DNA of 54,018 bases, taken from positions 1 through 54,018 of the forward strand of contig JACRIR010000069.1 in assembly GCA_016215705.1 (NCBI GenBank), given 5' to 3'. The position numbers and the translations under genes were made by a program. The notes under the pieces are model-generated. The model was not told the origin of the DNA, searched no databases, and worked only from the letters and a program-made list of their open reading frames with translations. Source of the DNA: Candidatus Poribacteria bacterium (GTDB taxonomy: Bacteria > Abyssobacteria > SURF-5). Each line of letters starts with the position of its first letter. The first letter of the stretch is position 1. Positions 3,058 to 19,665 of this stretch are shown in pieces.

Positions 3058-3339
3058 TCATTTCTCTTGTTTGAGCCATTTGCCCTTTGACTTCTTCCAA
3101 TGCTGGATTGTGAACACGACCCGCTTGACCCCTTTGGAGCGCAGGATGTTGCTTTCGAGCACGGTGAGCGTGCGGGCGGTCTCACGGTCATTCATTTCAT
3201 GTCCGGTCATCTTCTTGAATTCTCCCCGGATCATTACGGACCCCGAGGCCGTGCTCACGCCCAGTGAGGAAGTATCAAGATTATTCTCGACAAGAATCTT
3301 GCGCACTCTCGAGTTTATCTTAAGGTCATCTTCGGACAT
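3058..3339 (-). CDS. Small conserved-looking protein, possibly BON-like fold
   Basis: A 93-residue protein that I do not firmly recognise. It starts MSEDDLKINSRVRKILVEN, has a central segment TASGSVMIRGEFKKMTG, and a C-terminal segment with a VFTIQHWKKSKGKW tail rich in Lys. The pattern of a helix, a short strand with GSVMIRG, a long helix and a final strand ending VKRVVFTIQ resembles a BON or similar small alpha/beta domain, but this is only an impression. There is no signal peptide or membrane segment. No clear Shine-Dalgarno precedes the ATG. It stands alone between repeat-filled gaps, transcribed in the same direction as the GNAT gene upstream. Confidence 0.6.
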   Translation of the reverse strand: MSEDDLKINSRVRKILVENNLDTSSLGVSTASGSVMIRGEFKKMTGHEMNDRETARTLTVLESNILRSKGVKRVVFTIQHWKKSKGKWLKQEK

Positions 3340-3489
3340 GATGTATTGAGTGTTACGTCTTGCTTATTGCGTGGACTAGGGCTAGGAACGAAGAGATCAT
3401 GTTCCACAAGAAACAGGGCCTGGCCTTGAAACTTGAAATCGCTTCTCGCGGAGGATTCAACCGGGAACCAAGAACCAGGAACCACCTTT

Positions 3490-4014
3490 TTAGAGCAGAT
3501 ACTCCATGACGAGCACGTCCACGAGCTTATCCTTTATCTTGGCGTGCCGTCTGAGCATGCCCGCTTCCTCATAGCCCAGTCGCTTGTAGAAGCCCAGCTT
3601 TTCCCTGTTGAAATAATAGGCGAAAAACATAAGCTTCTTGAAACCCTTTTTTCGGGCGGCGGCGAATACCTTCTCGGCCAGCTTGCGCCCTAAGCCTTGT
3701 CCGCGAAAATCTTTTTCCACCCATATGGTGGCAACCCCGATGTGCGAATACACATCATCTTGCGAAAAAGGCTGTAAGGCGCTGAAACCCACGACGCAAC
3801 CACCCATATCCGCTACAAGCACAGCCTCGCGACTGCTCAGGCTCTTGAACCACGCAAGCCTCTGATTGAGCGGGTACGGCGTGATGTCCAGCACGGACTC
3901 ACGATCAACGATGCCCTGGTTGTGAATCTCCGTGATTCGCTGAACATCCTTCAAGATCGCTTCGCGCACTCGGGCCTTCGAGTCGGCCCTCTCGACAGTT
4001 GTGGAACGTGCCAT
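3490..4014 (-). CDS. GNAT family N-acetyltransferase (phosphinothricin acetyltransferase-like)
   Basis: Transfers an acetyl group from acetyl-CoA to an amine; the substrate is unknown. The protein starts at the ATG at 4012-4014, preceded at a good distance by a strong GGAGGGGGG ribosome site. A longer reading frame exists upstream but is not needed. The sequence has the GNAT order: an early helix (VQRITEIHNQGI), a central strand ending VVGFSALQPF, the acetyl-CoA loop in DFRGQGLGRKLAEKVF (R/QxxGxG), and a C-terminal FYKRLGYEEAG segment. The overall layout resembles the Pat/YncA subgroup. Length, about 174 residues, is normal for the family. Upstream of it lies a long repeat tract (4081-4430). 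Confidence 0.88.
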   Translation of the reverse strand: MARSTTVERADSKARVREAILKDVQRITEIHNQGIVDRESVLDITPYPLNQRLAWFKSLSSREAVLVADMGGCVVGFSALQPFSQDDVYSHIGVATIWVEKDFRGQGLGRKLAEKVFAAARKKGFKKLMFFAYYFNREKLGFYKRLGYEEAGMLRRHAKIKDKLVDVLVMEYLL

Positions 4015-4080
4015 TTCCCAACCCCCCTCCCCCCAGTCTGCTAACAATTTACCACCCAAAACGTCAGGAGTCAAGAGGCA

Positions 4081-4430
4081 TCAGTAGGCGAAAGGCGAAA
4101 GGGCAAAGGCGAAAGGGGAAAAACCAGTAGGCAAAAGGCGAAAGGACAGAGGCGAAAGGGGAAAGACCAGTAGGCGAAAGGCGCAACCAGAAAGGCGCAA
4201 GGAGAACGCAAGAAGATAGGGGCGAAAGGGGAAAAACCAGACCAGAAAAGGTCGCAGACCCGAGCCGCGACCACAAGAAGAAGAAACCCAAGAAGAAACT
4301 CCGGGAACACGAATGTCGCGAATGGCGCAAGGCGCGAGACGAATCGCACGAATAAGAATTCTTGGGGGGAAAAGGGGAAACGGGGAAAAGGCGAAAAGGA
4401 CGGGGAACAAGCGAAGAAGAAAAAGAAATT
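4081..4430. repeat. Tandem purine-rich repeat of GGCGAAAGG / GGGGAAA units
   Basis: Imperfect head-to-tail units built from AGGCGAAAGG and AGGGGAAA, with an interspersed CCAGTAGGC word (about 4130, 4168). Toward 4260-4340 are CACGAATGTCGCG-like words. No coding gene is apparent; the open frames here are by-products of the repeat. Related short runs lie at 355-395, 1945-1965, 21781-21800, 24530-24545, 40123-40140, 47397-47430 and 50048-50085. Confidence 0.85.
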
Positions 4431-4535
4431 GGGACACGAATACCACGAATTATGCGAATACCACGAATGAAAAGCCGAAAGAACCTTGAGTTATTTCAAC
4501 CATAAACCATGAACCATGAACCGTGAACCAGGTTT

Positions 4536-6329
4536 TCACCCCGTTATTCTGGCCCAGACATGTTTGAGGCTTTTTATGCTTTCGTCCGGCGCGCCGTGCG
4601 TCGAGTATTCCGCCAACAGGAACATCTTGAGGAGAGTATGGAACTCCTGCGCCTGCAAATCTTCAGGAAGCGACCTCATGAATTCGGTAGGTGTTTGCCC
4701 GATCAATGGAGTATGACCCTGCGCGTGCGCGAAGTTTTCGAAGGCTCTGTACGTATAACTTACCAGTTCCTCTTTTGACATACTCTTGAGCAACCGACTG
4801 TTCGCAAAAGGATTCTCGAGATAGAGATTCTCTTGCTTCAATATCTCCTCGGTCTCCTTCACTGATATACGACGTTCTCGCTTGCTCTTCAACAGATTAC
4901 GCAGACGCGCCGCGAATTCCTTCAGCCTGTTTGAGGCGCGACTGAGAGGGTTGCTTCTCCCCAGCGTGACTAACAGTCTGCCGAGCCCGAACAGCAGGCC
5001 GACAATGAGCAGGATGGCAAGCGCTATTCTCCCCAACGTCTCGAGTCCGTGAAGCGGCGGCGTCGGAAGCGGCGCGCGCTTTGCAGGCGCAGTATGGGCT
5101 TCCTGTGCAGCCGTTCGACGCGACTTGTCCGAAGACTCGCCCTCAGGCGAACCGCTTTTGCCATGACCGGCCCGCCCTTGAGATGATGCCGGGCCGGATT
5201 TTCCTTGATCTTTCCCTCCCTCGTCTTTGGACCCGTCTTTCTTACCCTCTTTTCCGTCATCCTTGCCCGACATTTCCTTTGCCATTTTCTTGGCATCCCG
5301 CTCTTCTTTCTCAAGAGCTGTCTCGATCTTGAAGGTCTGGCCTCCCCACGTCTCACCGGATATGCCCTTCTCTTCACCTTCCAACTCCTTGTCGGACGCA
5401 GCCAATTCGAGAGGACTCGAGGCCGAGCGAACAAGGTATTTCGAAACGGGACGGGGCGGAATGCTCGCGAGCGAGACAACAAGCACTATCGAGGCGCCGC
5501 CTGCCAGCGTCCAGAACCATCCGATGCGGGAAGGCGCGTCGATCTTCTTCTCCCAACAATGGAATCTTAGAGCCGATAATGTGGTTAACAGCAGGAGCGC
5601 AAGTGTGCACACTAGATTCTCGAGCATATAAGCGTATGCTCGCGAATACAACTGCCAATTATCAGCGGGCAACAGTCTCTGGCCGATGGTGAAGACAATC
5701 ATCGAGAAAAGCGAAAAATATATTGTCCAGTTGCTCGGGCGCCGCGCAAAAACAGGGACAGACCCTATTTGGGGGACTGTTGTCATTCTTGTTTCTTTCT
5801 TTTCGGCTTCGAGCCTTTTCTTCTCCTGTTCCTCGACATACTGCTCGCGCCGATACCAGTCCTGGCGGGCCCGGATTTCCGCCCTCATCCGGAGGTCACT
5901 CTTTTCCGGCGCGTCCGGCTTAATGTCGAAGCACGATTCGCGGCACAATTTATACGACGCGAACCCTACCACTGCCACGATACCCAGGTTGCCCAAGAAA
6001 CCTTCACCTGCAGCGGTTCCGCCGGCAATAAATCCAAAATGCGCGCAGAAAGTGAGCGCAAACAAAGCCATGACGCCCACAAGCGCAATGCTGTACAAAT
6101 TCGCCTTTTCAGACTCGCCATAGAGACCCGCAAGTCGATTCACCATTACGGTTCCCATGACGTAAAGGAAGAATACCCATGTGAGCGCCCGCTCCTGGCC
6201 GGGATAGAAGACACCCTTGAGGGCGATTGCGAACGCAACGAGGCTCCATATCAGCCCGATGATGAACACGGGTATGAGCGCCTCAACGACAAAATCAGTA
6301 ATAGATGTCCTGCGTGGCAAATTTCGCAA
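4536..6329 (-). CDS. Membrane protein with C-terminal DUF4129, partner of MoxR/DUF58
   Basis: A 597-residue integral membrane protein of unknown exact role. Residues 1-130 hold four hydrophobic segments. A charged linker follows (about 140-200), then three more membrane segments (about 205-295), and a very hydrophilic Lys/Glu/Gly/Ser-rich stretch (about 310-420) likely outside the membrane. One more membrane segment comes near 430-450. The tail (about 480-597) has the DUF4129 pattern: ETEEILKQE, then YTYRAFENFAHAQG, TPTEFMRSLP and LAEYSTHGAPDES. DUF4129 proteins usually travel with MoxR, DUF58 and a transglutaminase; no transglutaminase triad is visible here. Its start overlaps the end of the DUF58 gene by 35 bases, indicating one operon. 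Residues near 180-195 come from an in-frame repeat. Confidence 0.8.
   Translation of the reverse strand: MRNLPRRTSITDFVVEALIPVFIIGLIWSLVAFAIALKGVFYPGQERALTWVFFLYVMGTVMVNRLAGLYGESEKANLYSIALVGVMALFALTFCAHFGFIAGGTAAGEGFLGNLGIVAVVGFASYKLCRESCFDIKPDAPEKSDLRMRAEIRARQDWYRREQYVEEQEKKRLEAEKKETRMTTVPQIGSVPVFARRPSNWTIYFSLFSMIVFTIGQRLLPADNWQLYSRAYAYMLENLVCTLALLLLTTLSALRFHCWEKKIDAPSRIGWFWTLAGGASIVLVVSLASIPPRPVSKYLVRSASSPLELAASDKELEGEEKGISGETWGGQTFKIETALEKEERDAKKMAKEMSGKDDGKEGKKDGSKDEGGKDQGKSGPASSQGRAGHGKSGSPEGESSDKSRRTAAQEAHTAPAKRAPLPTPPLHGLETLGRIALAILLIVGLLFGLGRLLVTLGRSNPLSRASNRLKEFAARLRNLLKSKRERRISVKETEEILKQENLYLENPFANSRLLKSMSKEELVSYTYRAFENFAHAQGHTPLIGQTPTEFMRSLPEDLQAQEFHTLLKMFLLAEYSTHGAPDESIKSLKHVWARITG
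5748..5783. repeat. GGGACAGACCC repeat embedded in the DUF4129 gene
   Basis: The core GGGACAGACCCTATTT followed by GGGGGACTGTTG lies inside the coding frame and is translated as TVPQIGSVPVFA on the minus strand. A related copy lies in the neighbouring DUF58 gene at 6849-6874. Confidence 0.75.
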
Positions 6330-7644
6330 GGCCTTCCACGTCCTTTATGTGGTAAATGTCGATGGATTTCGAGACGAGCTTGTCCACTGCCTCGAAGTAT
6401 CCTGCTTCATTATCTATCATGAACAGATATATTGAGAAGCCCGCTTCCTTCATCACGCTCAGCGTAACCGCCGTGGCGTCACTCACTTCGGGCACTATGA
6501 CGAGGATCGACGAATCGCGGCTCAGTTGTTGAATTACATAGCTCAGGATTCTGTCGATGCTCGAACCATCGGTATAGTCGAGCCGCGCAAGCGCCTCGAG
6601 AATCAACCGCCCCTGTTCGGAGCCCTTGCGAGTCGGTATCATGAAGGGGGCAAGCGCGGTGGATTTCTCGCGTCTTCGCGCGCTTTGCGCCACTTGCTCG
6701 CGGAACTTGCCGAACAGCGGGAGCGATTCCCATCTCGCCTCCTCCGCGAGATCACGGCCGTTCGTGATAAGCCCCACTTGTTCATTGGCCTCTGCGATGT
6801 AGTTTGCAAGAGAGGCGGCCGTGATGACCGCGAGTTCGCCGCGGTCCCGGGAAATAGGGACAGACCCTGTTTTCCTGTATCCGTCCTCATGAAAGTCAAG
6901 AACTATTGTAGCGCCGATCACCTTTGACGGCTCGTAGACCTTTGTATGGAGAACGCCTGTGCGGGCGGAAGTCTTCCAATGTATCCGATTGAACGGGTCG
7001 CCCGGCGCATACTCGCGCACGCCGAGAATCCTTGCCGGGTCCTCGAATATTCTGTTCGTGATCTTGACGGTTCCCAGAGGCCTTCTGGCTGCGATATCGT
7101 ACTCCGTTATGGACTCGACCGAGGGGTAAACGATGACATAGTCTTTGGCCGAACCGGTTTTGTATCGCCTGAAAAACCCGAAGATGTCTCCTGTCTCTGT
7201 CAGGACAGGCCCGATTTGATGGTAACCCCTGCGGTTGAAAACAATCTGGTAGAGCAGCTTCTCCTCCTGGCCGGGCATGAGAGTCAGCAGGCGCGTATAC
7301 TCGCCCGTTATCGGCATTTTCTGAGGCAACAGGTCCTCGACGAACGCCCACGGGATAGGCAAGAAGCCCTTGTTCCTGACGGTAAGTATCACCTCGACTC
7401 TCTCGCCGATGGGGATTTCCATGCGGCTCACCTCACGCAGGCATTCGAGACCGCGCAGACATATCTCGACAATCAGACGCGAAAGCGCCATAATCAGCAG
7501 AGTCGCGTACAGGAAATAGACCACGAGGCCTGAGCCTGTGGCATATGCGAACAACAGGAGAGCTGCCGCTCCGGCGAACCATGTGAGGTTTCGGCGACCG
7601 AAGGCAGGTTTCTTTTCTATTGACTTCTTCATATTCCTAATCAT
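6295..7644 (-). CDS. DUF58 domain protein (MoxR-associated, vWA-like)
   Basis: A 449-residue protein of the DUF58 family, encoded with a MoxR ATPase and thought to act in assembly or maturation of envelope complexes. Two membrane segments lie near the N-terminus (about 20-60). The DUF58 signature is seen in LGVREYAPGDPFNRIHWKTSARTG (about 210-233), with the expected REYxxGDxxNxIxWKxSAR pattern. A vWA-like strand follows, ATIVLDFHEDG. Soon after comes KTGSVPIS, which matches an inserted GGGACAGACCC repeat. The gene is 137 bases downstream of moxR, with a palindrome between them. It overlaps the start of the DUF4129 gene by 35 bases. The first ATG has no clear ribosome site; an ATG four codons later is possible. 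Confidence 0.88.
   Translation of the reverse strand: MIRNMKKSIEKKPAFGRRNLTWFAGAAALLLFAYATGSGLVVYFLYATLLIMALSRLIVEICLRGLECLREVSRMEIPIGERVEVILTVRNKGFLPIPWAFVEDLLPQKMPITGEYTRLLTLMPGQEEKLLYQIVFNRRGYHQIGPVLTETGDIFGFFRRYKTGSAKDYVIVYPSVESITEYDIAARRPLGTVKITNRIFEDPARILGVREYAPGDPFNRIHWKTSARTGVLHTKVYEPSKVIGATIVLDFHEDGYRKTGSVPISRDRGELAVITAASLANYIAEANEQVGLITNGRDLAEEARWESLPLFGKFREQVAQSARRREKSTALAPFMIPTRKGSEQGRLILEALARLDYTDGSSIDRILSYVIQQLSRDSSILVIVPEVSDATAVTLSVMKEAGFSIYLFMIDNEAGYFEAVDKLVSKSIDIYHIKDVEGLAKFATQDIYY
6849..6874. repeat. GGGACAGACCC repeat embedded in the DUF58 gene
   Basis: The plus-strand sequence GGAAATAGGGACAGACCC plus TGTTTTCC is a near-palindrome and is translated in frame as RKTGSVPIS on the minus strand. 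Confidence 0.75.
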
Positions 7645-12098: not shown

Positions 12099-13283
12099 TT
12101 GGTGACTGAACTCTCGAATGGGAAGTGCGGACAGATTGCCAGTGTTCGGAAGCGCAAGGTACTTGATCCACATTGCACCTTGCCTGCACAGACAGATCCG
12201 GTCCTGCGTCTTCATACCTTGTGTCCCTACTATACCATGTTTCCGCTGCGTTTCCCTTTCACCGCTCTGTCGCAGGCTAACGCGGGAGATTGGGTTCTTG
12301 ACCCGTTTTGTGGCCGTGGCACGACTCTCTTCGCATCACGGCTGAGGGGACTCCCTTCGGTGGGGATTGACAGCAATCCGGTAGCGGCTGCTATCGCGGC
12401 CGCCAAATTGGCAATTGCCACCGCTGAAGATATAATCGCTCTGTGCCGGCGCATTCTTGAAGAAGGTGACAGCCATCAAGACGTTCCCGAAGCAGAATTC
12501 TGGCAACGGTGTTATTCCCGCAAGACTCTGCTCGCTATCTGTATTCTTCGGGAGTACTTTGCCCATCGTTGTGTAACTCCAGAGGAGATTATCTTGCGTG
12601 CCCTTGTCCTGGGAATCCTCCATGGCCCGCAAACAAGAAATACTCCAACATATCTCTCAAATCAAATGCCTCGGACATATGCTACCAAGCCTGCAGCGGC
12701 TCTTCGATTCTGGAAGCGACATCGTATGTTCCCATCGACCGTCGATGTTTCTGCCGCTGTGCGAAGGCGTGCGCATTTTTCCCTGGCCGAGATTCCCAAG
12801 GCTTCTGGTGGCCGAGTCTACTTGGCAGACAGCAGAACTGCCAATATTGGCCTCCGACATCCGCCGTTCACATGGGTAATTACCTCGCCACCGTACTTTG
12901 GCATGAGGACATATCGGCCTGACCAATGGATTCGCAATTGGTTCCTCGGAGGAAGGGTAGACGTCGATTACGGGCAAGATGGCCAGATTCCCCATCAAGA
13001 CGAGTCTTTCACCGCAGAGATGGCAAAGGTCTGGGCAAACGTCGCCCGGTTCTGCCAAAATGGCGCACGACTGGTTATCCGCTTCGGATCGCTGCCGAGT
13101 AAGGAAACCGATGCTCGTGCGATCATTCGAGAATCACTTTCTCTTGCTGACCGCGGTTGGCGCATTCTCACAGTCCGTGATGCGGGAAAGGCATCGAACG
13201 GCAACCGGCAGGCGGAACAGTTCCGGGGAAAGACTAATGAGGCTCTTCGCGAAATCGACGTATATGCACGTCTGGAGACATAA
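12099..13283 (+). CDS. DNA methyltransferase of the methyltransferase-NurA-HerA cassette
   Basis: A predicted S-adenosylmethionine-dependent DNA amino-methyltransferase of 394 residues. The SAM-binding motif I is DWVLDPFCGRGTTLFAS (64-80), followed by VGIDSNPVAAAIA (88-100). The catalytic motif is VITSPPYFGMRTY (260-272), the (D/N/S)PPY form used by N6-adenine and N4-cytosine enzymes. Motif I comes first, with about 185 residues (a likely target-recognition region) before the catalytic motif. The first possible starts are TTG 12099 and GTG 12102, because a stop lies just upstream; AAAGGT precedes at about 12 bases. The nurA-like gene begins one base after its stop. I infer that it marks host DNA so that the NurA-HerA pair spares it. 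Confidence 0.82.
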   Translation: MVTELSNGKCGQIASVRKRKVLDPHCTLPAQTDPVLRLHTLCPYYTMFPLRFPFTALSQANAGDWVLDPFCGRGTTLFASRLRGLPSVGIDSNPVAAAIAAAKLAIATAEDIIALCRRILEEGDSHQDVPEAEFWQRCYSRKTLLAICILREYFAHRCVTPEEIILRALVLGILHGPQTRNTPTYLSNQMPRTYATKPAAALRFWKRHRMFPSTVDVSAAVRRRAHFSLAEIPKASGGRVYLADSRTANIGLRHPPFTWVITSPPYFGMRTYRPDQWIRNWFLGGRVDVDYGQDGQIPHQDESFTAEMAKVWANVARFCQNGARLVIRFGSLPSKETDARAIIRESLSLADRGWRILTVRDAGKASNGNRQAEQFRGKTNEALREIDVYARLET

Positions 13284-13284
13284 C

Positions 13285-14454
13285 ATGTTCGATCCAAACG
13301 AACTCCCAAATCTTCGTGAAGCCATACGCGATTGCACTGTTGGTGATAAACACCTGCTGGACGATATTTGCGGCGAAGTTCGGAAGATCAAGCCGGAAGT
13401 GCGTTCGATAAAGCCCCGTTCAACCACATCTGTCTCTATCGTTGCGAGTGATGGCGGTAATAACAAGCTAGTCTATGATCCGTTCCATGTCCAACTTGTT
13501 CGCGTTGTTGATTCTTATGGCAACCCTCTCTGCGTCGATGCTATAACTCCGACTACTGATATAGATGTGCTCAGTAAGCGTCAGTTTCATGAGGATGGTA
13601 GACCCCGGACAGCGTTGGGACAGGTTATGGCCGACCTTATTGTAGAGCCATCCAAACGAACCCTGAACGAACTCAGCCACATGATTCCCTCCGCAGAAAA
13701 CGTTAAGAAATCACCATATGAAGTGTCTCCGTCCTGGGTGTTGGTGTATCGTGATTTATGCGAATGGGCAGCTTTGTATGAATTGATTTGTCATAAGAAA
13801 TTTGCCACAGATACTCTCTTGGTTCGAGATGGACTTCTCCGCAGCAAGCTTTACAGGGGAGAGTACTTCATTCGCTTTAGACAGCAGATCGAGAATTCCA
13901 TCGATAGGATTTACCGTGAGAATCGGCGGAAAGTCTTCTTGGTCGGGCTGGCAAAACACAGTAAGGTCCTTGCTCGATACTCTCTTGCAATGTCCGTCGA
14001 AGGTGTGTTGCATCCCGGAGAGCCTCGCTATGTAAGAATACCGCGAGCGATGGAAGCCAAAGCATATGTGTGGCCTGAGTATGCTCGTGGAGAGGAGACC
14101 GAGGGTAGTGGCGGTGAGGCTCCCAAATTCGTCGGTGGTGATATGTTCTGTGTTCGCTTTGGCTCCAGGAGCGGCGATCCTATCTGGACCGTCGACATCC
14201 TTAGTAAGCAGAGGACGCAGGCTGCCGAGGTCTTGGCTTACTTACTCGCTGACGCAATCGACGGGTTTCCCATCCCTTTTTATCCACGGTGTCTGCAAAA
14301 AGCACATGAGCATGCATCTGTTGTGGACTTTGACCTGGAAATTCTTCAGAATGAAATCATTGACGCGGTGAGAAGCATGCTACCAGATAACCAGCGGCAG
14401 ATTCTTGATGCCATGTCTCTTCAGGAAGATGTCACGGGACGGAGGTACGAATGA
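13285..14454 (+). CDS. NurA-domain nuclease
   Basis: A 389-residue protein with the NurA nuclease pattern. The family has an RNase H-like fold with metal-binding acidic residues and digests DNA ends together with the HerA translocase. Seen here: IVASDGGNNKLVYD (motif with D56), LLVRDGLLRSKLY (D182), VFLVGLAKHSKVL (the Lys/His motif, K224), and PFYPRCLQKAHEHASV (333-346, with the conserved YP and AH). The first Asp motif is usually DGS; here it is DGG. The start chosen is the ATG one base past the methyltransferase stop; the open frame continues upstream but overlaps that gene. The end overlaps the herA start in ATGA, so the two are translationally coupled. Confidence 0.82.
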   Translation: MFDPNELPNLREAIRDCTVGDKHLLDDICGEVRKIKPEVRSIKPRSTTSVSIVASDGGNNKLVYDPFHVQLVRVVDSYGNPLCVDAITPTTDIDVLSKRQFHEDGRPRTALGQVMADLIVEPSKRTLNELSHMIPSAENVKKSPYEVSPSWVLVYRDLCEWAALYELICHKKFATDTLLVRDGLLRSKLYRGEYFIRFRQQIENSIDRIYRENRRKVFLVGLAKHSKVLARYSLAMSVEGVLHPGEPRYVRIPRAMEAKAYVWPEYARGEETEGSGGEAPKFVGGDMFCVRFGSRSGDPIWTVDILSKQRTQAAEVLAYLLADAIDGFPIPFYPRCLQKAHEHASVVDFDLEILQNEIIDAVRSMLPDNQRQILDAMSLQEDVTGRRYE

Positions 14455-16601
14455 AGCTGTTCACGCGAGACAGTGCTGTCGGCGTTTTTCGTGGATTTAG
14501 CGAAGGAGGCCTTGAGTTTCATGCAGACCTCGTTCTACCGTATCGGAACGAGTTCCAAAGTGCACCAATGCATGGTCAATTCCTTGTCGTCCAACTTGAG
14601 AATGAGGACGAGGCTGTGCTGGGTCGCATCACATCCATCAGTGCCCAGGGAAGGCTCGCTTCCAGCGCCGGTGAGGACTATGGTATTCGCGCGGTCGCAG
14701 AAGACCGACAAATGCCGGAAGATCTCCGAGAGCAGTATCTCAAGTATCGGGTCAATATGCGAGTACTCGGAGTGTTGCGGATTGTTGACGATAAGACTGT
14801 TTTTGCAGCATCTCATCGCCGACTAACACATGTAGGAAGTAAAGTTGGATTCCTGCCGAAAGACCTTCTTCAGGAGGTCGCTGGACACAATGAAAATGGA
14901 GCCGAGTTGGGTTACTTTGCACTGGGAGAGTTCATCTACACTGGAGATGACTCAAACCTGAAACCCGAGTCATGGATGCAATTGCGTTCACCGAGAATTG
15001 TGTCACGGTTTCCCGTCGAGAATCTGGTTGCCCGTCGCAGTTTTGTCTTTGCTCGTGCTGGTTTCTGCAAGTCAAACCTTGTAAAACTTCTCTTCAGCAA
15101 CCTCTACGCAAAGCCGGTGGCGGTCGAAAAACGAGGTGGCCGGAAGGTTCCAGTGGGGACCATTATCTTCGACCCAGACGGCGAGTATTTCTGGCCAGAT
15201 GACAAAAACCGCCCCGGTTTGTGTGATGTTCCCGCACTGGAGGACAAGGTTGTTGTTTTCACATCACGGACTGGGCCAAGCCCCTTTTATCAGTCATTTG
15301 TGGCAGGCAATATTAGGCTGGATATACGGCGACTTCGGCCAGCGGACGTGATCTCAATTGCGCTTTCGCCTGAGAAACAGGACCAGCAAAACGTTCGTAA
15401 GCTCAAGGGACTCAACGATACTGCTTGGCGCAGGCTAGTGGATGAAATCTATCAGAATGGAAACACAGCGGACGAGCATCTGATTCAGCAGTTGCTGAAT
15501 CTTAACCAGGACCAGCAAGCTGAAACCATTGCCGCTCGAGCAAATATGACCACCATTGTCCGCATGCTTCATGACCCTAGCAGCCAGATGATGGACATGC
15601 TTATTGCCGCGCTTAGGGAAGGAAGGATTTGTGTCGTGGATGTCTCGCAGATGCGTGGGACCCCTGCGCTTGTTTTGTCCGGCCTTATTCTTTCCAGAAT
15701 ATTTGACCATAACCAGGAAGAGTTCACTAAGGCACAGCCTGAAACAATTCCCGTTATTGCCGTCGTCGAAGAAGCTCAGACCGTCCTCGGGGGTAGCGGC
15801 AGTAGTGGCGAAGGTCCCTACATCTCGTGGGTGAAGGAAGGACGGAAGTACGACTTGGGGGCAATGCTAATTACCCAGCAACCTGGCTCGATCTCTAGTG
15901 AGATTCTGAGTCAAGGTGACAACTGGTTCATTTTTCATCTTTTGTCTGCTGGTGACCTTGCTGCTGTAAAGCGAGCCAATGCTCATTTCAGCGACGACCT
16001 ACTCAGTTCGCTACTAAATGAACCGATTCCTGGACATGGCGTATTCTGGAGCAGCGTCAGCGGCAAGAGTTATCCCATTCCTATTCGAGTCCTTTCCTTT
16101 GAGGCTCTCTACCAAGCGCATGATTCGCAATACAGCAAACCTGCGGCGAAAACATCTGCCGTTGCACTGGAACAGAGATTCACCCAAGCTCTGACAACGA
16201 GCCGCTTAGCCTCTAGTAGTGGTCAATTGCCTACAAAGCTCTCCGATGAGAAACCGGGAGCCGTATCACAAGACGTTTCCGACGACACCATCAGTGTGGA
16301 AACCCAATCCGAGAGTCCCGAGGATGTATTGGAGACATATGTATGCTCAGCTATTCAACACTTGTCTTCAGAGAAATCATACATTGGTAAGCTGCGAAGT
16401 CAGGGGGCTCCCTGGCGCGATGTTCTGGAGAAACTAAAGGAAGGCCTGCCGGATGTAATTGAGGATAGCGAACGTAACAACTTGGCTCACCAATCTGTGG
16501 CACGAGCGATGGAAGAAATATTCGGCAGAGGCAAATGGAGAACAGAGAAAAGGCCCTCAAAGTCTGGCGGAGGCACAACAACCTGGATTGTTGTTCAGTA
16601 A
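14451..16601 (+). CDS. HerA-like DNA translocase ATPase with a variant Walker A
   Basis: A 716-residue HerA/FtsK-superfamily ATPase (DUF87-type), expected to form a hexamer that pumps DNA to its NurA partner. Residues 1-65 fit the HAS-barrel, a small N-terminal beta-barrel. The P-loop region is FVFARAGFCKSNLVKLL (198-214); the glycine normally before Lys is Cys206 and the first glycine is Ala201. Then come TIIFDPDGEYFW (237-248), Walker B IPVIAVVEEAQTVLG (433-447), and KYDLGAMLITQQPGSIS (466-482), typical of HerA. The C-terminal 180 residues are a low-complexity linker and a small unrecognised domain ending GGGTTTWIVVQ. Downstream of nurA with a 4-base overlap. Whether it still hydrolyses ATP is open. 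Confidence 0.85.
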   Translation: MKLFTRDSAVGVFRGFSEGGLEFHADLVLPYRNEFQSAPMHGQFLVVQLENEDEAVLGRITSISAQGRLASSAGEDYGIRAVAEDRQMPEDLREQYLKYRVNMRVLGVLRIVDDKTVFAASHRRLTHVGSKVGFLPKDLLQEVAGHNENGAELGYFALGEFIYTGDDSNLKPESWMQLRSPRIVSRFPVENLVARRSFVFARAGFCKSNLVKLLFSNLYAKPVAVEKRGGRKVPVGTIIFDPDGEYFWPDDKNRPGLCDVPALEDKVVVFTSRTGPSPFYQSFVAGNIRLDIRRLRPADVISIALSPEKQDQQNVRKLKGLNDTAWRRLVDEIYQNGNTADEHLIQQLLNLNQDQQAETIAARANMTTIVRMLHDPSSQMMDMLIAALREGRICVVDVSQMRGTPALVLSGLILSRIFDHNQEEFTKAQPETIPVIAVVEEAQTVLGGSGSSGEGPYISWVKEGRKYDLGAMLITQQPGSISSEILSQGDNWFIFHLLSAGDLAAVKRANAHFSDDLLSSLLNEPIPGHGVFWSSVSGKSYPIPIRVLSFEALYQAHDSQYSKPAAKTSAVALEQRFTQALTTSRLASSSGQLPTKLSDEKPGAVSQDVSDDTISVETQSESPEDVLETYVCSAIQHLSSEKSYIGKLRSQGAPWRDVLEKLKEGLPDVIEDSERNNLAHQSVARAMEEIFGRGKWRTEKRPSKSGGGTTTWIVVQ

Positions 16602-16943: not shown

Positions 16944-17246
16944 GTGAATATAATATTCAGGACAAGAGCGTTGGAGGATGCTTACCAGCATATCGAGGTT
17001 GGCGCCAAGAAGTGGGGTGGCGTGGTCGCTCGCAGATATGTCCAGCGTGTGGATATCCTCAAGGTAGTCAACGACCTCAGCGCTTTAAGAGCCTATCCCT
17101 CTCTTCGGTACCATCCTCTCAAAGGAGATCGTGAAGGACAGCATTCGATTAAGCTGGCGAATCGCTACCGGCTAATCTTCACTTTTCACGGCGAAAGGAT
17201 GGAAACCGTTAGGATCGAGGAGGTTAGCAAGCACTATGGTGACTGA
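16944..17246 (+). CDS. higB: HigB-like RelE/ParE family toxin
   Basis: A 100-residue RelE-superfamily toxin of the HigB type, which in the family cuts mRNA at the ribosome. It starts at a GTG and reads NIIFRTRALEDAYQHIEVGA, then a helix with RRYVQRVDILKVVNDLSALRAYPSLRYHPLKGDREGQHSI. It ends with the strands LANRYRLIFTFHG and VRIEEVSKHYGD. The RYHPLKGDREG and NRYRLIF blocks are characteristic of the HigB/RelE set. The coding end overlaps the antitoxin start by 11 bases, the usual toxin-first higBA order. A TTGACA and a TATAAT lie around the start codon (16924-16954), but their positions are awkward for a promoter. Confidence 0.88.
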   Translation: MNIIFRTRALEDAYQHIEVGAKKWGGVVARRYVQRVDILKVVNDLSALRAYPSLRYHPLKGDREGQHSIKLANRYRLIFTFHGERMETVRIEEVSKHYGD

Positions 17247-18315
17247 CAATGACAGAGTTATCTGGCCGGACATTGCCATTCCGCCTGGAGAACTGTTAGC
17301 GGAAACGATTGAAGCCAAGAACCTAAGCCAATCTGAATTGGCAAGGCGGATGGACCGCCCGATTCAGGTCATAAATGAAATCATTAAAGGGAAGAGGAGC
17401 ATCACTCCTGAGACAGCCATACAACTCGAGCGTGTACTCGGCACTCCAGCCTATGTATGGATCAATCTGGAAAAGAACTACGAATATAACAAAGCGCGAC
17501 TGGTGGACCTGAAGGAATTGGAGAAGCAGATTCCGTGGTTGGACTCCTTTCCATACAGGTGCATGGCAGAATTGGGATGGGTGAGAAGCACTGGCGACAA
17601 AGTAGAACGCGTAAAGGAGTTGCTATCGTTTTTTGGCGTCACTTCATTCGAGGAATTGAAATGCTTCTGGGAAGTGGCATACCGCAGGTCTTACGCCAAG
17701 CGGCCGTCGCCCGAAGCTCTTGCGGCCTGGCTGAGAAGAGGAGAAATCGAGGCACACGGGATCGACGTGGCCGGTTTCGATGAGAAGAAACTCAAAGAGG
17801 CCCTTGCCGCGTTCCGCGAACTGACACGGAAACCCGCCAGAGAATTTTCGCTGGTTTTGCGAAGTCTTTGCGCTTCGTGCGGGATCGCGCTCGTTTTCAT
17901 TCCCCATCTTCCGAAGACTTACGCGCACGGCGCAACCCGCTGGCTGGCGCCAGACAAAGCCCTAGTCCAACTAAGTGTCCGATACAGATATGACGACATC
18001 TTCTGGTTCAGCTTTTTCCACGAGGCGGGACACATTATTCGTCACGGCAAGAAAAGGGTTTTCGTCGAGATTAACGAATCAAACAAATCCGATGAAGAAA
18101 TGGAAGCCGACAGATTTGCGCGTGACACACTGATTCCGCCGGATGAGTTCCGGCTCTTCACCTCTTGCGGACGCATGTTTTCAAAAGCCGCCGTGGTTGA
18201 ATTTGCGTGTCGAATCGAAGTCGCGCCGAGCATCGTTGTAGGACGGTTACAACATGAGGGATTGATCCCGCATACCCATCTTAACGCTTTGAGAACGCAG
18301 TTTACAATCAAATAA
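17236..18315 (+). CDS. higA: HigA-type antitoxin fused to an ImmA/IrrE metalloprotease domain
   Basis: A 359-residue two-domain protein. Residues about 15-75 are a HigA-type helix-turn-helix (PPGELLAETIEAKNLSQSEL, then RPIQVINEIIKGKRSITPETA), which in the family binds DNA and neutralises HigB. The C-terminal part (about 210-330) is an ImmA/IrrE zinc metallopeptidase domain with the intact HExxH in FHEAGHIIRH and the downstream EMEADRFARDTLIPP segment that supplies the third ligand. The middle part is helical and unassigned. Antitoxins of this long type with a protease-like tail are known. Here the domain could control antitoxin or regulator turnover in response to stress. It is the last gene of the island. 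Confidence 0.88.
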   Translation: MVTDNDRVIWPDIAIPPGELLAETIEAKNLSQSELARRMDRPIQVINEIIKGKRSITPETAIQLERVLGTPAYVWINLEKNYEYNKARLVDLKELEKQIPWLDSFPYRCMAELGWVRSTGDKVERVKELLSFFGVTSFEELKCFWEVAYRRSYAKRPSPEALAAWLRRGEIEAHGIDVAGFDEKKLKEALAAFRELTRKPAREFSLVLRSLCASCGIALVFIPHLPKTYAHGATRWLAPDKALVQLSVRYRYDDIFWFSFFHEAGHIIRHGKKRVFVEINESNKSDEEMEADRFARDTLIPPDEFRLFTSCGRMFSKAAVVEFACRIEVAPSIVVGRLQHEGLIPHTHLNALRTQFTIK

Positions 18316-19117: not shown

Positions 19118-19665
19118 ACCTAAGAATTTGTGTTAGAATAAGTTATGCCTTTCCTGAAACTGCTGGCATCGAGTTTGCTTGTATCTTCATGAATTCGTGT
19201 GCCCAATCAGCGGAGAAAATGCGAAAAGGGCTCCAATTAGGGGTGGGAGCGACAGCAGAGCGAGTGGGCGGAACCCCGGCGACACACGGCGAAGTCCAAA
19301 GTCTATGGTTTGCGGTTCAGAGTTTGAGATTTAGGGTTCCACTAAGAGACTCCCCGCCCCGCGCAGCCCCGAATGAAGGCGATACCCCATCCGCTCGAAA
19401 GAGAAATATCTAACCACGGATTTAGACAAGAAAGGAGAAGCAAGCTTTGACCACGGATTTCTCGGATCCCTCACGGATTCTGAGAAAAGAAGAAGTGATC
19501 GTTAACCACGGATTTGCACGGATTCACACGGATTGGGATAAAGAAGAAAAAGAAGAAGCGGCCCCTCTGATTCACACGGATCCCTCTGTGCCAACATGGT
19601 TGAGACAGTCTCCTCTAATGAATTAGAGTAGTAGTTGGAGGGCGAGGAGGCGAGAAGAAGCGGGA

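Follow-up and report, generated by a model that had tools for sequence, protein, structure and literature searches.

A methyltransferase–NurA–HerA gene trio as a candidate restriction-modification-like defense cassette in bacteria and archaea

The window, the whole 54,018-nucleotide stretch of DNA analyzed here (contig JACRIR010000069.1, Candidatus Poribacteria bacterium), carries three closely packed genes on the forward strand, encoding a class I amino-type DNA methyltransferase (MT; 12099–13283, 394 aa from TTG), a TdpB-like nuclease with the NurA fold (13285–14454, 389 aa), and a TdpA-like DNA translocase of the HerA type (14451–16601, 716 aa). MT was assigned from Pfam, sequence motifs, and an AlphaFold2 model, NurA from an AlphaFold2 model with structure and profile matches, and HerA from Pfam, PDB sequence, and PADLOC matches. 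For MT, the TTG at 12099 and a GTG at 12102 are equally possible starts. Consistent with the preliminary description of this locus, the ORFs of MT and NurA were separated by 1 base, those of NurA and HerA overlapped by 4 bases (ATGA), and codon use was less GC-rich than in neighboring genes, as judged at third positions (GC of 0.522, 0.495, and 0.506 for MT, NurA, and HerA, respectively; 22 other genes of the window averaged 0.681, sd 0.041). The flanking window genes scanned encoded housekeeping functions (TilS, MoxR/DUF58/BatD-type, an AMP-ligase, and a GlnD-like protein). No convincing terminal repeats bounding the cassette as an inserted element were found, and promoter-like sites were no more frequent than in shuffled sequences. 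Downstream of the cassette (16944–18315), a HigB-like toxin and HigA/M78-domain antitoxin pair is possibly a further defense module, the antitoxin matching PADLOC PD-Lambda-2_B (E = 1.1e-36). Short direct repeats of 22–30 nt, ending in ACCACGGATTT, were also present upstream of the MoxR gene (19402–19515).

MT scored above the cut-off for Pfam N6_N4_Mtase (E = 1.6e-9). Its motif I (DPFCGRGTT, residues 68–76) precedes motif IV (TSPPY, residues 262–266), and both showed little or no variation among 65 aligned sequences; the catalytic motifs were also conserved in alignment A2, upholding the earlier identification of an amino-type DNA methyltransferase from these same elements. The AlphaFold2 model of MT (pLDDT 86.5) adopted a class I methyltransferase fold. 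In amino-methyltransferases, TSPPY favors methylation of N4-cytosine, and, judging from this motif, N4-cytosine is probably the base methylated here. Between motifs I and IV lies a helical insert with strongly conserved LGxLHGP and SNQxPRTYxxKP elements; mean conservation across residues 180–215 was 0.69, compared with 0.72 and 0.74 in the catalytic regions. This insert may be the DNA-recognition part of the enzyme, and if so the target sequence may be common to different hosts.

The window NurA matched Pfam NurA (PF09376) at E 0.11, its 12.4 bits being below the cut-off of 21, and PADLOC models gave no match. Because this search was subthreshold, Pfam/NCBIfam matches were rejected as the sole basis for nuclease identity and the assignment rests on structure. 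An AlphaFold2 model (pLDDT 89.8), built from alignment A1 of 50 relatives, found its best solved match in TdpB (8wfd_G; Z 23.7, rmsd 4.2 over 324 residues), at 15–17% identity in the structural alignment. The next matches were NurA of Thermococcus and Sulfolobus and structures 3tai, 3tal, and 3taz (Z 12–15), followed by Argonaute proteins. A profile search of PDB sequences likewise returned TdpB (E = 1.2e-5), with the EWA, DGxL, and GVxKxS motifs aligned. Hence, the NurA-domain nuclease proposed in the preliminary description was not recovered by a plain Pfam search, and its support comes from a model matching TdpB and archaeal NurA. Six acidic residues were invariant in alignment A1, namely D56 (DGG), E160 (EW), D182 (DGLLR), E239, E257, and D304, and these include candidate active-site residues. 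In the NurA of Thermococcus kodakarensis, Asp49 is required for cutting (PMC12977600); the DGG motif suggests that D56 is its counterpart.

HerA was readily recognized, confirming the translocase assignment made at the outset. It matched Pfam DUF87 (E = 2.3e-18) and PADLOC HerA models (E down to 2.3e-17), and among PDB sequences it matched TdpA best (E = 7.4e-16), archaeal HERA (1.7e-9) and the HerA proteins of other solved complexes ranking lower. The Walker A loop, ARAGFGKSN in the HerA family, reads ARAGFCKSN in the window copy, codon 206 (15066–15068, forward strand) being TGC (Cys). Glycine occupies this position in 81 of 82 aligned sequences, the cysteine is unique to the window HerA, and TGC is one base from a Gly codon; the remaining conserved HerA positions are intact. 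G206C could reflect a miscalled base, a change that the protein tolerates, or a mutation that inactivates it, and the window copy may therefore be impaired. The HerA–NurA of T. kodakarensis cuts both strands of dsDNA with a requirement for the HerA ATPase (PMC12977600), so the change could be consequential in this copy, though it does not count against the cassette family. The authors of that study suggested that T. kodakarensis HerA–NurA acts against viruses.

HerA was scanned across 84,980 species, with one genome per species. Of 135 relatives, 80 were kept and joined by one IMG/VR contig, giving 81 loci. NurA immediately preceded HerA in 79 of these, that is, in every locus with readable upstream DNA, the two exceptions lying at contig ends. 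In 59 loci, 1.3 kb or more was available on each side; MT adjoined NurA–HerA in 48 of these, including three (L032, L039, and L041) in which the MT ORF runs into HerA and tblastn placed MT directly after HerA. As in restriction-modification systems, a methyltransferase with intact motifs I and IV is thus linked to a nuclease in 48 of 59 loci. MT took one of three positions: ahead of NurA–HerA, as in the window; behind the pair and co-directional with it; or behind the pair on the opposite strand. In the HerA tree, loci of this third type constituted one side of a branch that had support. No adjacent MT was found in 11 of the 59 loci. In two of these (L036 and L069) a strong MT match lay at another site in the genome, and the same was true of L033, a locus close to a contig edge; another two (L067 and L068) had only weak matches, and the rest had none. 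In both L036 and L069, which are betaproteobacterial, a large gene lies upstream of NurA (3324–6695 and 3469–6723, respectively), that of L036 encoding Sacsin and NOV_C domains. All 14 MT-bearing genomes tested carried a single MT copy.

Pairwise distances among the three proteins were correlated (Mantel r of 0.75 for MT–NurA, 0.76 for MT–HerA, and 0.90 for NurA–HerA, against permutation maxima of 0.24, 0.23, and 0.28), indicating that MT, NurA, and HerA move together as one unit, and were congruent despite the variable MT order. The HerA tree mixed phyla, the window copy grouping with Myxococcota, Bipolaricaulota, Latescibacterota, and Planctomycetota, and a Thermoplasmata archaeon (L025) also bears the cassette. 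Far from being unique to this genome, the trio recurs across many phyla, the kind of recurrence that the preliminary description had regarded as favorable, with gene order varying for MT only. The cassette was absent from two other genomes of the window's family, and a sample of 398 Pseudomonadota genomes held two carriers, one of them the sample's chosen center. Such patchy occurrence across phyla is what a mobile accessory system would show. Among 72,556 plasmids and 50,697 phages, none carried a full-length HerA of the window subtype. The IMG/VR contig (L083, 14.6 kb) carries NurA–HerA–MT, and a viral or proviral element may therefore carry the cassette. Cultured carriers include Alicyclobacillus acidiphilus, Elizabethkingia miricola, Pandoraea nosoerga, and Sphingobacterium paucimobilis, and long-read sequencing of these strains could thus reveal the methylated motif.

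Neighbors of the relatives were mixed, including some defense genes (Type I R-M, MADS, PtuA-like, Sacsin/NOV_C, and integrases) and much housekeeping. The expected occurrence near other defense genes was thus borne out in part, some such neighbors being present in mixed surroundings; given this mixture, we make no claim of defense-island enrichment. No fourth gene recurred across loci. Four Bacteroidota loci (L016, L018, L023, and L051) carried two extra genes tightly downstream of HerA, an AAA_15/AAA_21 (AbiEii-type) ATPase and a protein of ~300 aa without a Pfam match (tested in L018), which suggests an added effector pair.

A second, deeply divergent HerA–NurA–MT cassette was found in the same genome on another contig, C263 (342–4814 in L116; also L002/L085), its HerA being the only other HerA match in this genome. 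The C263 HerA (670 aa) was ~30% identical to the window HerA in the C-terminal core only, and no sequence similarity was detected between the NurA encoded beside it (449 aa) and that of the window. Unlike the latter, the C263 NurA exceeded the cut-off for Pfam NurA (PF09376; E = 5e-15, 56.1 bits). The two MTs were 35% identical over 260 aa (E = 4e-38), the SNQM element included. This second subtype was complete in two further genomes (L109 and L110). A plasmid from the haloarchaeon Halorarius halobius carries it in the order HerA, NurA-like, MT. The megaplasmid of Deferribacter desulfuricans likewise bears the trio, with an IS200/IS605-TnpB element interrupting its HerA gene (L104, 8172–11970). 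Second-subtype HerA–NurA without this MT was found in three loci (L111–L113) and on a cyanobacterial plasmid. The strongest indication of a functional association is the retention of one kind of MT alongside HerA–NurA pairs that differ so much from each other. The Allochromatium tepidum plasmid pAt1 carries an orphan member of this MT family (L107, 5962–7068), with 49% identity to the window MT, adjoining a TnpB/IS200 element and with HerA–NurA not nearby; this orphan is possibly a protective methylase.

Gene content, conservation, co-inheritance, folds, and candidate active-site residues are directly supported by these data, and we consider it likely that the cassette is a standalone, ATP-dependent, restriction-modification-like defense system in which self DNA is marked by methylation and HerA–NurA does the cutting. 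MT would methylate the host genome at a target sequence. HerA would load on dsDNA as a hexameric ring and, by ATP hydrolysis, pump it into a NurA dimer that would cut both strands; this motor-nuclease part follows published HerA–NurA work (PMC12977600). Methylated self DNA would be spared, presumably by the mark stalling or preventing HerA–NurA action as phosphorothioate reportedly does in TdpAB, and unmethylated phage or plasmid DNA would be degraded. We infer hexamer and dimer assembly, the methylated base, the sensing of methylation by HerA–NurA, and antiviral action. The self/non-self marking envisaged in the preliminary description is strengthened by TdpAB as the closest solved relative and by the second, divergent cassette, and is qualified by the 11 of 59 loci without a nearby MT and by the Walker A substitution, which may disable the translocase of the window copy.

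We judged two other readings of the cassette family to be improbable. The less probable of them is a DNA end-processing or repair module with no defense role, in which HerA–NurA resects ends and MT regulates or marks DNA for repair. HerA–NurA has been described as end-resection machinery in archaea and Deinococcus (reviewed in PMC12977600), and several loci have HerA–NurA without MT. However, the Thermococcus enzymes cut both strands without leaving overhangs, raising doubt over resection (PMC12977600), and the patchy spread across phyla, a dedicated, co-inherited MT, lower GC, and kinship with TdpAB fit a horizontally moved defense better. Loci retaining HerA–NurA and no MT could be read as a Type IV-like or signal-triggered system, in which HerA–NurA hits foreign modified DNA or senses infection and MT has a separate role (decoy or regulation). 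Sir2-HerA and HerA-DUF4297, as HerA defenses that lack a modification gene, offer precedents, yet most loci have MT linked to the HerA–NurA pair, with which it coevolves, and the orphan MT on the Allochromatium plasmid is as expected of a protective methylase; hence we think this reading unlikely.

Decay in the window's genome concerns this copy and not the family, and is compatible with the defense reading for the latter. Here, G206C would have abolished the ATPase, leaving at most a working methylase, as the rarity of cysteine at this position and its single-base distance from a Gly codon might suggest. However, all three genes retain full-length frames, HerA is otherwise intact at conserved positions, and a base error is possible in an assembly of 270 contigs; decay is therefore a serious possibility that we nonetheless lean against. 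Turning back to methylation-guarded defense at the level of the family, we see an even chance that the cassettes constitute an undescribed class of ATP-dependent restriction-modification in bacteria and archaea, with at least two deeply divergent subtypes and one MT family providing the self mark for a HerA–NurA ring. If so, HerA–NurA, which has long been considered a repair machine of unclear purpose, would be the cutting arm of a methylation-guided defense in many bacteria.

Among known systems, archaeal and Deinococcus HerA–NurA share with the cassette the same two folds and the adjacency of herA and nurA. Unlike these, the cassette includes a linked methyltransferase, which is not described for them in the literature found, and its NurA falls below the Pfam NurA cut-off and is structurally nearer to TdpB than to archaeal NurA. 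Sir2-HerA (Nezha) and HerA-DUF4297 similarly combine a HerA ring with an effector enzyme in phage defense, but their effectors are Sir2 and DUF4297 rather than a NurA fold. HerA/FtsK capture systems and BREX-related HerA systems are different assemblies (PMC10853773, PMC12839542). Types I and III restriction-modification likewise unite a modification enzyme, an ATP-driven translocase, and a nuclease; in contrast, the motor of the cassette is a HerA/FtsK-type ring and not an SF2 helicase, its nuclease has the NurA fold, and there is no specificity subunit. PADLOC returned generic HerA and MTase models and a weak mad8 match, naming no system of this make-up, and our literature search found no description of the trio, with an earlier mention possible in Iyer 2004 (HerA-FtsK) or the Tdp paper. 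This agrees with the initial impression that no well-described system has exactly these parts.

The closest known counterpart is TdpAB, reportedly a phosphorothioation-guided anti-phage system (Thermus-type) in which the phosphorothioate mark is said to hamper TdpA movement. Among PDB sequences, the window HerA is matched best by TdpA, with the GFGKSN loop context and downstream core in common, and fold and profile comparisons both give TdpB as the top match for the window NurA (PDB 8wet, 8wfd, and 8y1k). The compact layout of modification, pump, and nuclease is also shared with TdpABC, and the cassette probably works like it in outline. TdpC is the phosphorothioation enzyme of that layout. 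The cassette differs in that its self mark would come from a methyltransferase and not a phosphorothioation enzyme; a PAPS-reductase/DndC-type gene was absent from the scanned flanking window genes, and DndC-type families, used as queries in place of TdpC itself, had no match in the genome. With a different modification gene and no DndC in the genome, we rejected identity with TdpABC. What is new is probably the methyltransferase as the modification gene within a modification-guarded HerA-nuclease defense. If this is true, the cassette and TdpABC together imply that a HerA–NurA machine can pair with unrelated self marks, and the swap from phosphorothioation to methylation would make self-recognition by a pump and nuclease directly testable, with the same kind of motor facing two marks.
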